This document shows, one piece after another, positions 1 through 6,631 of a stretch of DNA of 36,863 nt. A program made the position numbers and the translations under genes. This DNA comes from Wohlfahrtiimonas populi. GTDB lineage: Bacteria; Pseudomonadota; Gammaproteobacteria; Cardiobacteriales; Wohlfahrtiimonadaceae. Below the pieces are notes generated by a model, which saw nothing but the letters and a program-made list of their open reading frames with translations, searched no databases and was not told the DNA's origin. How positions within the stretch are numbered: position 1 is the stretch's first letter; the number at the start of each line of letters is the position of its first letter. The stretch lies in the NCBI RefSeq assembly GCF_002006795.1, contig NZ_MVDN01000009.1:26089-62951 (forward strand), read 5' to 3'.

Positions 1-650
1 CAGCGAATAAGATCATTCGCCAAGCTTATGCATTGGTTGGTTTATCTCTCATCCCAACAGCCATTGGCGTTTGGGTTGGTTTCTTAATGGATAACCTTTT
101 ACTTCGCGTTGCAATGAGTAGCCCAATTGCATACTTCATCGGCGTAATGGTTGTATTTTATGGCTTGATCTTCATGATCGAGAAAAACCGTCGTAACAGT
201 ATTGGCCTTGTATTGATGTTTGTATTTACATTCGGCATGGGCTTAATGCTACAACCATTATTAGCAATGGTTGGCAACATGAGCAACGGCATGAACTTAA
301 TCAGCACAGCTGTATTTGGTACGGCTGCTATCTTTGTAGGCTTAGCATTAGTTGGTAACAACACAAGCAAAGATTACTCTTTCTTAGGTCGCTATATTGG
401 CATCCTATTCTTTGTATTGATGGCAACGATCATCTTGAACTACTTTTTCTTGAAAATGCCAATGATCTCATTAGTTGTATCATTTGCTGTGATTGGTTTT
501 TCATCAATGATCATTGTTTACCGCATCAATATGGCTGCTCGTGGCGGTGAAGATAGCTACATTTCATTAGCATTAGATATCTATATCTCTTTATACAATA
601 TCTTCACAAGCTTATTGAGAATCTTAGCAATCTTTGGTGGTGATGATTAA
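1..650 (+). CDS. BI-1 family (YccA/YbhL-like) inner membrane protein, 5' partial
   Basis: This is the C-terminal part of a multi-pass membrane protein of the Bax inhibitor-1 (UPF0005) family; the reading frame is open to the left window edge, so the true start lies outside. The first visible residues, ANKIIRQAYALVGLSL, match the typical entry into the first membrane helix of this family, so only a short N-terminal tail is missing. About seven hydrophobic segments follow. The TTG at 33 is an internal Leu codon, not a start. The family includes E. coli YccA, which modulates FtsH, and YbhL; the exact role here is inferred from family only. The gene ends at a hairpin terminator shared with the convergent NadE-like gene. 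Confidence 0.85.
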   Translation, partial: ANKIIRQAYALVGLSLIPTAIGVWVGFLMDNLLLRVAMSSPIAYFIGVMVVFYGLIFMIEKNRRNSIGLVLMFVFTFGMGLMLQPLLAMVGNMSNGMNLISTAVFGTAAIFVGLALVGNNTSKDYSFLGRYIGILFFVLMATIILNYFFLKMPMISLVVSFAVIGFSSMIIVYRINMAARGGEDSYISLALDIYISLYNIFTSLLRILAIFGGDD

Positions 651-676: not shown

Positions 677-705
677 AAAAAGCCAGCTGAATTGCTGGCT
701 TTTTT
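677..705. terminator. Bidirectional intrinsic terminator
   Basis: The arms AGCCAGC (681-687) and GCTGGCT (694-700) enclose a 6-nt loop and are flanked by A and T runs on both sides. It lies between two convergent genes (BI-1 family and NadE-like) and can serve both. Confidence 0.85.
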
Positions 706-717
706 ATTTGATCAAGA

Positions 718-2334
718 TTATAAACTTGTGATATCAATTTGATCCCAATCCACAATGGATGGAAATAACCAATCATTTTGGAACGATCGATTAGATAACT
801 TAGGACTAAAGCCTGATTTGATTCTGTACCATTCCTCTTGATGCAAACGACGAATGACAGAGATAATGAGATCATTATCATACTCTTCATTCAATATCTG
901 CTTCACTGAGCGATTCTTCTCAATGTACAGCGTTAAAATTTCATCAATGTCAGAAACTTTAGTGGCTCTACCGCCATAAATAAAATTCTTCTTAATCGTT
1001 TTCGTGGCAGAAGCTTCCAATAATTCATTCGGAAAAATATCAGTTTGATTGGATATGTTAATGTAATTCGCCAATTGCACTAAACTCGTGTGATAAATAT
1101 CCATCAATGGCATAAATTCAGTCAATGCAAAACTAGAAATATTATCCTTAATGCCTAAAGCCACTTGCGTTTTATCAATACAACCCAATGGCCATGCACC
1201 TAATAACTCAGCCACAGATATAAAAATGGATGATTTAAAACGATCTTGAGTATCTTTCTTCCATTTTTCATCCACCAAATGTTCTGCTTGACTAATGAAA
1301 CCATGAATCAGCTCATTCTCCAATTGCCAGCTGAATAATTTAATACCTAAATCATCCATATATGATTGAATGCCTGCTTTAAGTTTGGGAGAATCAAAGC
1401 GTGATTGAATGTACAAACCTGAAACTCGGTTTTTCCCCAAAGCTTTCATGGCAATGAATAAAGCCACTTGAGAATTCAAACTGCCATCCATCAAAACCAA
1501 TGCTTTATTTTGTGGTGTTTTACGGATGAATTCTTGAATCACAAACTTAACCGCCCAATATAACTCTTTAACATAATGGGTCGATTTACAATAAACAGGA
1601 TGCTCTTTATCTTTCAGCTGATTCATAGATGTGACTGCTGAATCTTCTTCAAAGTGCCTCAATAGCAATAATGTTTGCCCTTCTTCATTGGTAATAGACG
1701 AACAACCTTCCAGTAACAAACTGTTAGAAATTCCCACATTATTCACATAAATGATTGGTGCTTGCTTTTCTCGTGCTAAAGAGTGAATGAATTGCTCACG
1801 TTCAATACTTAACTCACGTGACCAAGGAAAAGCCGCACAGCAGCATAGGAGATCACAATCAGGCACAGCAGTATCAGAAAATAATTCCTCCGAAACCACA
1901 ATCCCAATTTTAAGACCTTTAAATTCAAATACAGTGGATTGCGTGCCTGCTTTAAAGTAGCGATGCTCTGCGTATAATTCAACATTAGGAATCACTGTTT
2001 TTCGATGATTACCAATAATTCTACCATCCTTCATGATGGCAATACTGCTATAAAGCACTTCATCCACTTGTTCAGGATAACCCACTAAAACGATGGATCT
2101 TGCGCCTGCATGGCTTGCAATTTCTACGATCGCTTTTTGGCAAGATGCGAGAAACTGGTCTTTTAAAAAGAAATCATCTGCCCCATAACCAGATACACAC
2201 AACTCTGGAAATACGATTAATTCAGCGCCATTTTTTTGCGCCTTATGAATAGTTTCTATAATTCTTTTTGTATTTAACTGAACATCACCACCAGTGCTAC
2301 TAACCTGCTCCAATGCAATCTGTAGGTTATACAT
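718..2334 (-). CDS. NadE-like protein with degenerate glutaminase and synthetase active sites
   Basis: A 538-residue protein with the full architecture of glutamine-dependent NAD+ synthetase: a nitrilase-fold amidase domain (about 1-245) followed by an ATP-pyrophosphatase synthetase domain (about 255-538), including the family's C-terminal PKLSNRSF segment. Key residues are altered. In the amidase, Glu44 (FPEL) and Lys112 (HRKTVIPN) remain, but the nucleophile motif, normally ICED, reads VSEE, putting Ser148 in place of cysteine. In the synthetase, the P-loop SGGxDS is DGSLNS at 283-288, the TGNKSE motif is CIDKTQ (385-390), and YGD is IKD. The ORF is intact and normal in length, so it does not look like a fresh pseudogene. 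I infer a pseudoenzyme or a protein with a new role; a real NadE should exist elsewhere. It diverges from recN. Confidence 0.8.
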   Translation of the reverse strand: MYNLQIALEQVSSTGGDVQLNTKRIIETIHKAQKNGAELIVFPELCVSGYGADDFFLKDQFLASCQKAIVEIASHAGARSIVLVGYPEQVDEVLYSSIAIMKDGRIIGNHRKTVIPNVELYAEHRYFKAGTQSTVFEFKGLKIGIVVSEELFSDTAVPDCDLLCCCAAFPWSRELSIEREQFIHSLAREKQAPIIYVNNVGISNSLLLEGCSSITNEEGQTLLLLRHFEEDSAVTSMNQLKDKEHPVYCKSTHYVKELYWAVKFVIQEFIRKTPQNKALVLMDGSLNSQVALFIAMKALGKNRVSGLYIQSRFDSPKLKAGIQSYMDDLGIKLFSWQLENELIHGFISQAEHLVDEKWKKDTQDRFKSSIFISVAELLGAWPLGCIDKTQVALGIKDNISSFALTEFMPLMDIYHTSLVQLANYINISNQTDIFPNELLEASATKTIKKNFIYGGRATKVSDIDEILTLYIEKNRSVKQILNEEYDNDLIISVIRRLHQEEWYRIKSGFSPKLSNRSFQNDWLFPSIVDWDQIDITSL

Positions 2335-2475
2335 GTGTTCAAGCTCCTTATTTTAGGCTATGTGATTTTTATCTTAGCATCGTTAAGTCCTAGATTCTGT
2401 ATTAATTATTATCCAATTTATATGATTATTGGTTACAATAAGCGCGTTTGACTGATCAACCAAAGGTATTTTTAC

Positions 2476-4140
2476 ATGCTTGTTGAATTAACCATAGAAA
2501 ACTTAGCGATTATTGAAAATTTATCACTAGAATTTGATCGAGGTCTATCTGTCATCAGTGGTGAAACTGGTGCAGGTAAATCCATTACAGTGGATGCTTT
2601 GAGCTATATTCTTGGCGGCAAAGTTGATCATGGTTTAATCAGTCATGATAAAAGCCAATGTAATTTAGTGGCACATTTTGATGTTTCTGATATTCCGAAA
2701 GCCAAAACTTGGTTGCAAGAACAACTCATCGAATCAGAAGATGGCGAATGCATCATTCGTCGCGTGATCAATAAAGAAGGTCGTTCAAAAAACTATATCA
2801 ATGGTCAATCCATGCCATTGTATGCATTAAAAAGCTTAGGTGAATTACTCATTGATATTCATGGGCAACACGCACATCAATCACTTGTGAAAGATGGTCA
2901 TCAACGAGAGCTACTCGATCAATATACAGAAACAGATCCTGAATTAACAGAACTACAAGGATTAGCGAGAGAAATCCGTAAACGCACGGAGCAGTTGAAT
3001 CAACTCAAAAACCAAGATGATTCCATGCGCGAACGTGTTGATTTCTTAAATTTCCAACTGCAAGAATTCAAGAATGTCGCCCCGAAACAAGGCGAATGGG
3101 AAAGCATTGTGGATCAACACAATGAAGCAAGCCATGCAGAAGAATACCAAGAAGGCATCCAAAAGTGCCTCAATTACTTGAATGATGATCGCGGTGTTTT
3201 AACTCAATTGAATCGCATTGGGCAACAGCTTTCTGCCCTTGCAAAGCTCGATGAAAAATTCAAAAGCTATGCAGATATGATCAATGAAGCAGATATTCTC
3301 TGTTCTGAAGTTGCCAATGATTTAAATCGTATGGATAGTGCTGAAGTGGATGAAAAAACATTGATGCGACTAGAATCTAGAATGCGTGAACTCAATGATT
3401 TAGCAAGAAAACATCGCGTTGAACCTGAAGAGCTATTAACTAAACAACAAGACATTGAAACTGAAATTGCTTCACAATTTTTATCCGATGAAGCCATTGA
3501 AGATTTAGAAAATGAGCTCAAAGAATATCAAGATCAATGGCAGAAAGTTGCAGATAAAATTACGAAAAAACGGGAAGCTTCTATCATCCTATTGAATGAA
3601 CAAATCACTAAAGCAATGCAAGGTTTATCCATGACTGGAGGTGCTTTTGATATTCGCCTGAATCCTGAAAAAGGCTTTGGTCCTAATGGGCAAGAGAATG
3701 TTGAATTTCATGTTCGCTCAAATCCTGGCATGCCATTTTATCCACTCGGTAAAGTTGCTTCTGGCGGTGAATTGGCACGTATTAGCTTAGCCATTTCCGT
3801 CATTCTCAGCATGAAGTCTTCCCTACCAACTTTAATTTTCGATGAAGTAGATACTGGTGTTGGTGGTGCTGTTGCAGAGATGATAGGTAAGCATTTACAA
3901 GAATTGAGCGATGGACGACAAGTGTTCTGTGTGACACATTTACCACAAGTGGCAAGCTTTGGGCATCATCACTTTGCCGTTGCTAAAGCTAAATCAGAAA
4001 ATCATACAGAAACACAAATCAAAAAATTATCACCTGAAGAACGCGTGCAGGAAATTGCGAGAATGCTAGGTGGCGTTAAACTCACTGAAGCAACCTTCAA
4101 TCATGCACGTGAAATGCTTACAGCAAGTCATTCATCATGA
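2476..4140 (+). CDS. recN: DNA repair protein RecN
   Basis: SMC-like ATPase used in recombinational repair of double-strand breaks. The 554 residues are the usual family length. Visible motifs are Walker A GETGAGKS (29-36), a coiled-coil region rich in Glu, Gln and Lys in the middle (about 150-380), the ABC signature ASGGELARISLAI (about 428-440) and Walker B LIFDEVDTG (about 452-460). The start at 2476 is the only ATG that gives the canonical N-terminus. I saw no clean LexA box in the 140-bp upstream region, although recN is SOS-controlled in E. coli. The stop codon overlaps the start of the next gene by 4 bp (ATGA), so the two are probably translationally coupled. Confidence 0.97.
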   Translation: MLVELTIENLAIIENLSLEFDRGLSVISGETGAGKSITVDALSYILGGKVDHGLISHDKSQCNLVAHFDVSDIPKAKTWLQEQLIESEDGECIIRRVINKEGRSKNYINGQSMPLYALKSLGELLIDIHGQHAHQSLVKDGHQRELLDQYTETDPELTELQGLAREIRKRTEQLNQLKNQDDSMRERVDFLNFQLQEFKNVAPKQGEWESIVDQHNEASHAEEYQEGIQKCLNYLNDDRGVLTQLNRIGQQLSALAKLDEKFKSYADMINEADILCSEVANDLNRMDSAEVDEKTLMRLESRMRELNDLARKHRVEPEELLTKQQDIETEIASQFLSDEAIEDLENELKEYQDQWQKVADKITKKREASIILLNEQITKAMQGLSMTGGAFDIRLNPEKGFGPNGQENVEFHVRSNPGMPFYPLGKVASGGELARISLAISVILSMKSSLPTLIFDEVDTGVGGAVAEMIGKHLQELSDGRQVFCVTHLPQVASFGHHHFAVAKAKSENHTETQIKKLSPEERVQEIARMLGGVKLTEATFNHAREMLTASHSS

Positions 4141-5101: not shown

Positions 5102-6631
5102 TTATTCCCACTCAACTGTTGCTGGTGGCTTGCTCGTAATATCATAAACAATACGGTTAACATGTTTTACTTCATTCACCAAACGCACTGAGATCTTCTG
5201 CAAAATATCCCATGGAATGCGAGCAAAATCAGCTGTCATACCGTCTACAGAAGTGATCGCACGAATTGCTAATGTGTAATCGTAAGTACGAGTATCACCC
5301 ATTACGCCAACACTTTTCAACCCTGTTAATACTGTGAAATACTGCCAAATATCACGATCCAAACCTGCTTTCGCAATCTCTTCACGTAGAATCAAATCAC
5401 TATCACGTACGATTTCTAATTTCTCTTCTGTGATGTCACCCAAAATACGGATTGCTAAACCTGGACCTGGGAATGGTTGGCGCCATACTAAATGTGCAGG
5501 CATACCTAATTCTTCACCCAATAAACGTACTTCATCTTTAAATAAAGTATTCACAGGCTCGATTAATTTGAATTTCATATCTTCAGGCAAACCACCCACA
5601 TTGTGGTGAGATTTGATTGTTTGTGCTGTTGCAGTACCAGATTCAATGATATCTGTATACAAAGTGCCTTGTGCTAAGAAATCGATATCTTTTAATTTTT
5701 CTGATTCTTCATCAAATAGATAAATGAATTCATTACCAATGATTTTACGCTTTTGCTCAGGATCAGAAACACCTGCCAATTTCGTCAAGAAACGTTCTTT
5801 TGCATCTACTTTAATGATGTTTAAGCCAAATTTACCGCTTAAATTATTCATCACTTCTTCTGCTTCATTTTTACGAAGCATACCGTGATCCACGAATACA
5901 CATGTTAATTGCGAGCCAATTGCTTTTTGCAACAATACGCCCACAACGCTTGAATCCACACCGCCAGATAATGCTAGCAATACTTTTTTATCACCCACTT
6001 GCTCGCGGATTGCTTTCACTTGTTGGTCAATGAAGTTTTCCATTTTCCAATCACCAGCGCATTGGCATACATTCAATGTGAAGTTCTTCAATAAGTCGAA
6101 ACCTCTTTCAGAATGTTGTACTTCTGGATGGAACTGAACGCCAAACCATTTTTTATCTTTATTTTCCATCGCAGCAATTGGGCAATCGCTACTTGTTGCG
6201 ATCACTTCAAAACCTGCTGGAATTTCTGTTACTAAATCGCCGTGGCTCATCCAAACAGTGTGTTCTTCAGGCAAGCCTTGTAATAACAATACATCTTTAA
6301 CTGTATGTTTCAATACTGCTTTACCATATTCACTATGATCAGCTTTAGAAACTTTACCACCTAAAGAGTGAGACATTAACTGCATACCATAGCAAATACC
6401 TAATACAGGAATACCTAAATTGAAAATTTCCATATCAATTTTGAAAGCATTGTCTGCATAAACACTATTTGGGCCACCAGATAAAATTATGCCTTTAGGT
6501 GCTAATTTTTGAATTTCTGCTGCAGTCGTTGTATGAGGAATCAATTCGGAAAAAACACCAATTTCACGAATGCGACGCGCGATCAACTGATTGTATTGGC
6601 TACCAAAATCTAAAACGACTATATTTTCCAT
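5102..6631 (-). CDS. guaA: GMP synthase (glutamine-hydrolysing)
   Basis: Converts XMP to GMP with glutamine and ATP, the last step of guanine nucleotide synthesis. The 509-residue protein has the class I glutamine amidotransferase domain (Cys80 in GICYGMQ, His168 and Glu170 in FHPE), the ATP-pyrophosphatase P-loop LSGGVDSS (221-228) and the C-terminal dimerisation domain ending PPATVEWE. A perfect TATAAT (minus strand, 6675-6680) lies about 44 bp upstream of the start; its -35 region is poor. An AAGGAA Shine-Dalgarno precedes the ATG at 6631. guaB is not adjacent. Confidence 0.98.

Follow-up and report, generated by a model that had tools for sequence, protein, structure and literature searches.

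A full-length NAD synthetase homologue of Wohlfahrtiimonas with both catalytic centres altered: a probable binding protein under purifying selection

The essential enzyme NAD synthetase has been studied in depth and serves as a drug target. The locus described here raises the question why a bacterium would keep a full-length homologue of the glutamine-dependent enzyme in which catalytic residues of both domains have been replaced. The gene lies in a stretch of 36,863 nucleotides from Wohlfahrtiimonas populi (contig NZ_MVDN01000009.1, positions 26,089 to 62,951), which we refer to as the window; its contig is 107 kb long and the genome comprises 2.78 Mb. A first-pass annotation had described the gene, from the letters alone, as a nadE homologue of normal length with both active sites apparently destroyed, and had proposed a retained pseudoenzyme. 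We name the gene pseudo-nadE and its product pseudo-NadE.

Architecture and active-site residues

The open reading frame (Table 1) is real, with its ATG at position 2334 of the minus strand. The order yccA–pseudo-nadE–recN is maintained across the genus, while in the sister genus pseudo-nadE adjoins ftsY, with a maf gene close by. The gene is linked neither to nadE nor to other NAD genes, and no functional link to pseudo-nadE was found for these neighbours in either genus. The stem between the convergent genes carries runs of A and T on its sides and could serve both strands.

Table 1. Features of the pseudo-nadE locus, with positions counted from the first nucleotide of the window
Feature	Position	Strand	Basis
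YccA/Bax1-I-like membrane protein gene, convergent neighbour, conserved in genus	3..650	+	
Stem of 11 pairs resembling a terminator, in the gap separating pseudo-nadE from the convergent yccA-like gene	677..704	.	pattern match only
Pseudo-NadE coding sequence including stop, ATG start, 538 residues	718..2334	-	open reading frame, Pfam, end-to-end alignment
C-terminal NAD-synthetase-like half, residues 246-538	721..1599	-	Pfam, AlphaFold model, structure comparison
CIDKTQ, residues 385-390, where TGNKSE is expected	1165..1182	-	alignment
DGSLNS, residues 283-288, where the ATP-binding SGGxDS loop is expected	1471..1488	-	alignment
N-terminal nitrilase/glutaminase-like half, residues 1-245	1600..2334	-	Pfam, AlphaFold model, structure comparison
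Phe169 where the invariant glutamine-pocket Ser is expected	1828..1830	-	alignment
Ser148 (TCG) where the catalytic Cys is expected	1891..1893	-	alignment
Glu123, the pocket's second glutamate, at the end of the YRE loop, kept	1966..1968	-	alignment
Lys112, lysine of the nitrilase triad, kept	1999..2001	-	alignment
Glu44, acid/base of the nitrilase triad, kept	2203..2205	-	alignment
AAGGAG ribosome-binding site, 9 nt ahead of ATG	2344..2349	-	sequence read directly
recN, divergent neighbour, conserved in genus	2476..4140	+	

Pseudo-NadE exhibits the domain order of glutamine-dependent NAD synthetases: Pfam assigns residues 6–233 to CN_hydrolase (E 2e-20) and residues 264–504 to NAD_synthase (4e-11), and the protein aligns along its whole length with solved structures of such enzymes, e.g., 5kha and 4f4h. 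An AlphaFold2 model computed from 29 sequences (mean pLDDT 82.8, pTM 0.84; an earlier model from three close sequences was poor, with a pLDDT of 46.9) retains the two-domain fold, and the solved structures nearest to it are again 4f4h and 5kha (Z ∼36, 24% identity). Hence, as judged from the model, the fold is most likely retained, and the view of the first-pass annotation that pseudo-NadE keeps both fold and length is borne out by domain matches, alignment and modelling alike. The NCBIfam equivalog NF010588, in contrast, assigns pseudo-NadE only 288.7 bits, below its cut-off of 479, which a canonical control exceeds well with 744.6 bits. Pseudo-NadE thus shares with the glutamine-dependent enzymes (5kha, 4f4h, 3n05) its length, domain order, predicted fold and ∼22–26% identity overall, but is devoid of the thiol nucleophile and of the SGGxDS, TGNKSE, YGD and PSAEL motifs, and carries substitutions of the Ser and the Tyr that bind glutamine.

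In the numbering of the window's protein (P0001), which is used throughout, the TLYGDM segment is replaced by D397-N-I-S-S-F402 and PSAEL by A443-T-K-T-I447. Phe169 aligns with the residue preceding Pro204 of the M. tuberculosis enzyme, and Val118 occupies the position of Tyr127 in its YRE loop, a residue that contacts the ligand (PMC6946656). Since the Ser of the pocket is Phe169 and the glutamine-contacting Tyr is Val118, glutamine is unlikely to be the ligand of this pocket.

These changes characterize a family of eight proteins, encoded in six genomes of the window's genus and two of its sister genus. Ser stands in place of the nucleophilic Cys and the ATP loop has been destroyed in 8/8 members but in 0/75 outside homologues; the latter, the nearest ones found, come from Proteobacteria and viral contigs, and all 75 possess the canonical Cys, the pocket Ser, the S-G-G-x-D-S loop and the Glu of TGNKSE. 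Canonical motifs were likewise found in all 19 homologues from viral contigs. The family thus retains Glu44 and Lys112 of the Cys-Glu-Lys glutaminase triad, whereas the Cys nucleophile of catalytic members of the nitrilase superfamily is Ser148 in every member. In one orthologue (G004), a Glu is still present at the position of Gln390, and a Cys is found at position 288. Because the substitutions recur in all eight genomes, sequencing or assembly error can be ruled out. A wider clade of such proteins was also considered and rejected, as the best matches inspected from a class-wide and a phylum-wide search were all canonical. Each residue change named in the first-pass annotation (Cys to Ser148, SGGxDS to DGSLNS, and the altered TGNKSE and YGD) is therefore real, yet represents a trait of the clade rather than a peculiarity of the window's copy.

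The two halves differ in what they have kept. In the N-terminal half, Glu44, Lys112, Glu123, Glu149 and Tyr50, that is, the frame of a nitrilase site other than its nucleophile, are invariant in all eight proteins, while in the synthetase half Lys388, Asp412 and Arg365 are shared by all members and Ser288 by most of them. Of the positions at which canonical enzymes do not vary, both genera retain 17/47 in the glutaminase half as compared with 10/71 in the synthetase half. Moreover, where the N-terminal half has departed from such residues throughout the window's genus, the replacement is fixed at 13/19 positions, compared with 35% of the columns that form the background (Fisher p 0.006), whereas in the C-terminal half this is the case for 14/42 positions against a background of 36% (p 0.86). 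This contrast indicates, at the level of sequence, that the old synthetase site has been freed from constraint and that the old glutaminase pocket was changed and then held. The notion that both active sites are destroyed hence stands for the synthetase site, where residues and constraint are both lost, but not for the nitrilase pocket, whose Glu-Lys-Glu frame persists and whose altered form is under constraint.

Selection, an intact NadE and the origin of the family

Codon maximum likelihood yielded a dN/dS of 0.039 at dS 0.69 for the G003/G001 pair (2dlnL 332 versus neutrality) and of 0.032 at dS 2.4 for the G002/G005 pair; synonymous divergence is moderate in both, while the other pairs are saturated at synonymous sites. 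Neutrality was rejected for every pair (2dlnL 282–509), and constraint is found in both halves (0.047 and 0.026). Purifying selection therefore acts on a protein which combines catalytic losses shared across its clade with a retained fold. The evolutionary rate of pseudo-NadE is mostly 1.1–3 times that of the short NadE described below, which is compatible with a weak function. The fastest copy is that of G004 (L010 / L100), which ends at a contig end and in which amino-acid change relative to the window's genome is ∼3 times that of its short NadE.

The short NadE is an ammonia-type enzyme of 252 residues counted from its ATG, encoded ∼40 kb from pseudo-nadE on the same contig (G000:C74:66488-67189). 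Its SGGVDS, GTDN and YGDGG motifs are intact, and it scores 223 bits against TIGR00552 (cut-off 63.65). While its synthetase domain is homologous to that of pseudo-NadE, all catalytic motifs are intact, and the gene overlaps the end of a nicotinate phosphoribosyltransferase gene. Downstream of it, in a run located outside the window (G000:C74:66458-68315; L103:6459-8316), a HemW-like gene follows. A short NadE occurs in all eight carriers of pseudo-NadE, and the reservation that pseudo-NadE might be the only NAD synthetase of its genome thus falls away. So does the concern that sister species could carry canonical orthologues beside a neutrally drifting copy, since their copies are degenerate alike and, where dS is measurable, evolve at a dN/dS of 0.03–0.04. 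The earlier proposal of a pseudo-NAD-synthetase retained beside an intact NadE is consistent with the presence of both genes and with the strong purifying selection on pseudo-NadE.

At the search threshold used, no long homologue was found in nine genomes of another genus of the family; all three of these that were examined for a short NadE possess one. The recN gene of that genus is ∼70% identical to that of the sister genus, and both are ∼55% identical to recN of the window's genus. Given this grouping, the simplest history suggested by the sequences is that one pseudo-NadE existed in the ancestor of the family and was later lost in one genus, transfer between genera being a conceivable alternative. 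In a maximum-likelihood tree the two groups of pseudo-NadE are joined with full support on long branches (3.35 and 4.64), and long-branch attraction between them is a concern. However, an equally long branch (G037) stayed outside these groups, and 23 residues rare in canonical enzymes are identical in all eight proteins. On the other hand, Ser148 is encoded by TCN in the window's genus but by AGC in its sister, and the two groups also have different ATP loops. Taking the tree and the 23 residues together with these differences, the proteins probably form a single clade, in which some lesions, at least, may have reached their final state separately in each genus. The G037 protein (L021) is itself divergent rather than degenerate: despite its very long branch, this NadE possesses an intact SGGVDS motif and the catalytic Cys, and it lacks the usual N-terminal start.

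The probable role of pseudo-NadE

Sequence comparison points to descent from a glutamine-dependent NAD synthetase, with loss of the ATP-binding and adenylating residues and of the thiol nucleophile, and the present role of the protein is probably that of a non-enzymatic binding protein. We assign a probability of roughly 55% to the reading that pseudo-NadE is a pseudoenzyme whose altered nitrilase-like pocket binds a ligand without turning it over, on a scaffold derived from the synthetase. The synthetase half would then support folding and assembly, and a pocket formed by Glu44, Lys112, Glu123, Glu149, Tyr50, Ser148, Phe169 and Trp171 would accommodate a small molecule. Binding without turnover is suggested by the Glu-Lys-Glu frame, by the fixed replacements in the pocket and by a published Cys-to-Ser nitrilase: in the C158S variant of a related nitrilase the residue's binding properties are preserved, reactivity is strongly diminished and unmodified ligand is visible (PMC4812014). 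The exchange has been engineered on its own, in the fold shared with pseudo-NadE and with Glu and Lys retained, in MtCPA (C158S; 5h8k/5h8l), yeast Nit2 (C169S; 4hgd) and a Nesterenkonia amidase (C145S; 5nz5). These are, however, single-domain laboratory variants, whereas the Ser of pseudo-NadE is a natural residue that has become fixed across a clade, in a domain fused to a dead synthetase half. Ligand binding may in turn alter how pseudo-NadE interacts with a partner. The short NadE is the prime candidate, and pseudo-NadE could form a hetero-assembly with it via the retained synthetase fold. Since NAD synthetases composed of two subunits (PMC3376133) and regulation of NadE by PII proteins (PMC7196632) are known, a regulatory link between pseudo-NadE and NadE is plausible by analogy.

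Several other readings have to be weighed against this one. To our knowledge, Cys is the nucleophile of every characterised nitrilase. Pseudo-NadE could nevertheless represent a new enzyme of the nitrilase superfamily, in which Ser148, acting as nucleophile within the Glu-Lys frame, catalyses acyl transfer or an amidase reaction, with a purely structural role for the synthetase half. The invariance of Glu44, Lys112, Glu123 and Glu149 and the fixation of the changed pocket positions would agree with this, as would a Ser encoded by TCN in one genus and AGC in the other, which implies either two changes from Cys to Ser or selection for Ser. Yet parallel arrival at Ser is not very unlikely, as 2/7 of the one-base amino-acid changes from a Cys codon yield it, the residues that bind the substrate are changed, and the same exchange strongly diminishes reactivity in the related nitrilase (PMC4812014). 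We thus consider a new enzyme unlikely, and more doubtful still that a natural Glu-Lys-Ser enzyme or covalent sensor of nitrilase fold arose on a dead synthetase scaffold by way of different serine codons in the two genera. Alternatively, pseudo-NadE might bind no ligand at all and support or regulate the short NadE as one of its subunits, forming a hetero-oligomer through the dimer surface of the synthetase. A comparable pseudoenzyme partner is PDX1.2 of vitamin B6 synthesis, likewise a catalytically dead paralogue beside an active one, although the physical partner of pseudo-NadE is putative. The short NadE accompanies pseudo-NadE in all carriers, the fold is retained and the C-terminal tail is conserved within the genus. 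However, the short NadE also occurs in family members without pseudo-NadE and so does not need it, the two genes are unlinked, and an interface alone would leave the fixed old glutaminase pocket unexplained; we rate this role as rather unlikely.

The two remaining readings appear highly improbable. Slow decay of a former glutamine-dependent NadE, superfluous beside the short enzyme, would accord with that redundancy, with the genus that has no pseudo-NadE and with evolution faster than that of the neighbours, above all in G004. It is argued against by the low dN/dS where dS is measurable, by likelihood tests that strongly rejected neutrality for every pair, by open frames of full length in all lineages (apart from the G004 copy cut by its contig end), by the ribosome-binding site that has been kept and by derived residues common to the two genera. 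A NAD synthetase still active through unorthodox residues could draw on the intact fold, on Lys388, Asp412 and Arg365 in all members and on Ser288 in most. But in all eight proteins S283, G285, D287, the YGD segment and most of PSAEL have given way to other residues, and these positions are no longer under constraint, a NadE with intact motifs is present, and in Salmonella NadE the single loop substitution S48N raises the Km for ammonia ∼70- to 100-fold (PMC3376133).

As pseudo-NadE is a natural Cys-to-Ser nitrilase, its putative ligand could be sought directly. The only other CN_hydrolase match in the window's genome is an open reading frame of 525 residues, comparable in length to apolipoprotein N-acyltransferase, and for that reason pseudo-NadE may be the sole soluble nitrilase-like protein there. 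In the literature library covered, a search retrieved no paper on a clade-fixed, selected pseudo-NAD-synthetase, and one on nitrilase pseudoenzymes yielded nothing relevant. Pseudo-NadE may reveal a mode of control over NAD production or a novel function for this fold, and annotating it by homology as NAD(+) synthase would mislead metabolic models of Wohlfahrtiimonas.

A parallel in GuaA

A second GMP synthetase of GuaA type, ∼425–435 residues long, is encoded at positions 1117-2397 of L005 (G000:C34) and was also seen in L181, L182 and L184. Its synthetase half is intact, including SGGVDS, and a short N-terminal stretch takes the place of the glutaminase domain. The window's genome encodes a full-length guaA too (window positions 5102-6631), while in the sister-genus genome G007 the glutaminase-less form is the only GuaA match found. 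The occurrence of a glutaminase-less GuaA together with an ammonia-type NadE suggests that the lineage has abandoned its reliance on glutamine to donate the amide group in part, a change which may be linked to ammonia-rich habitats.
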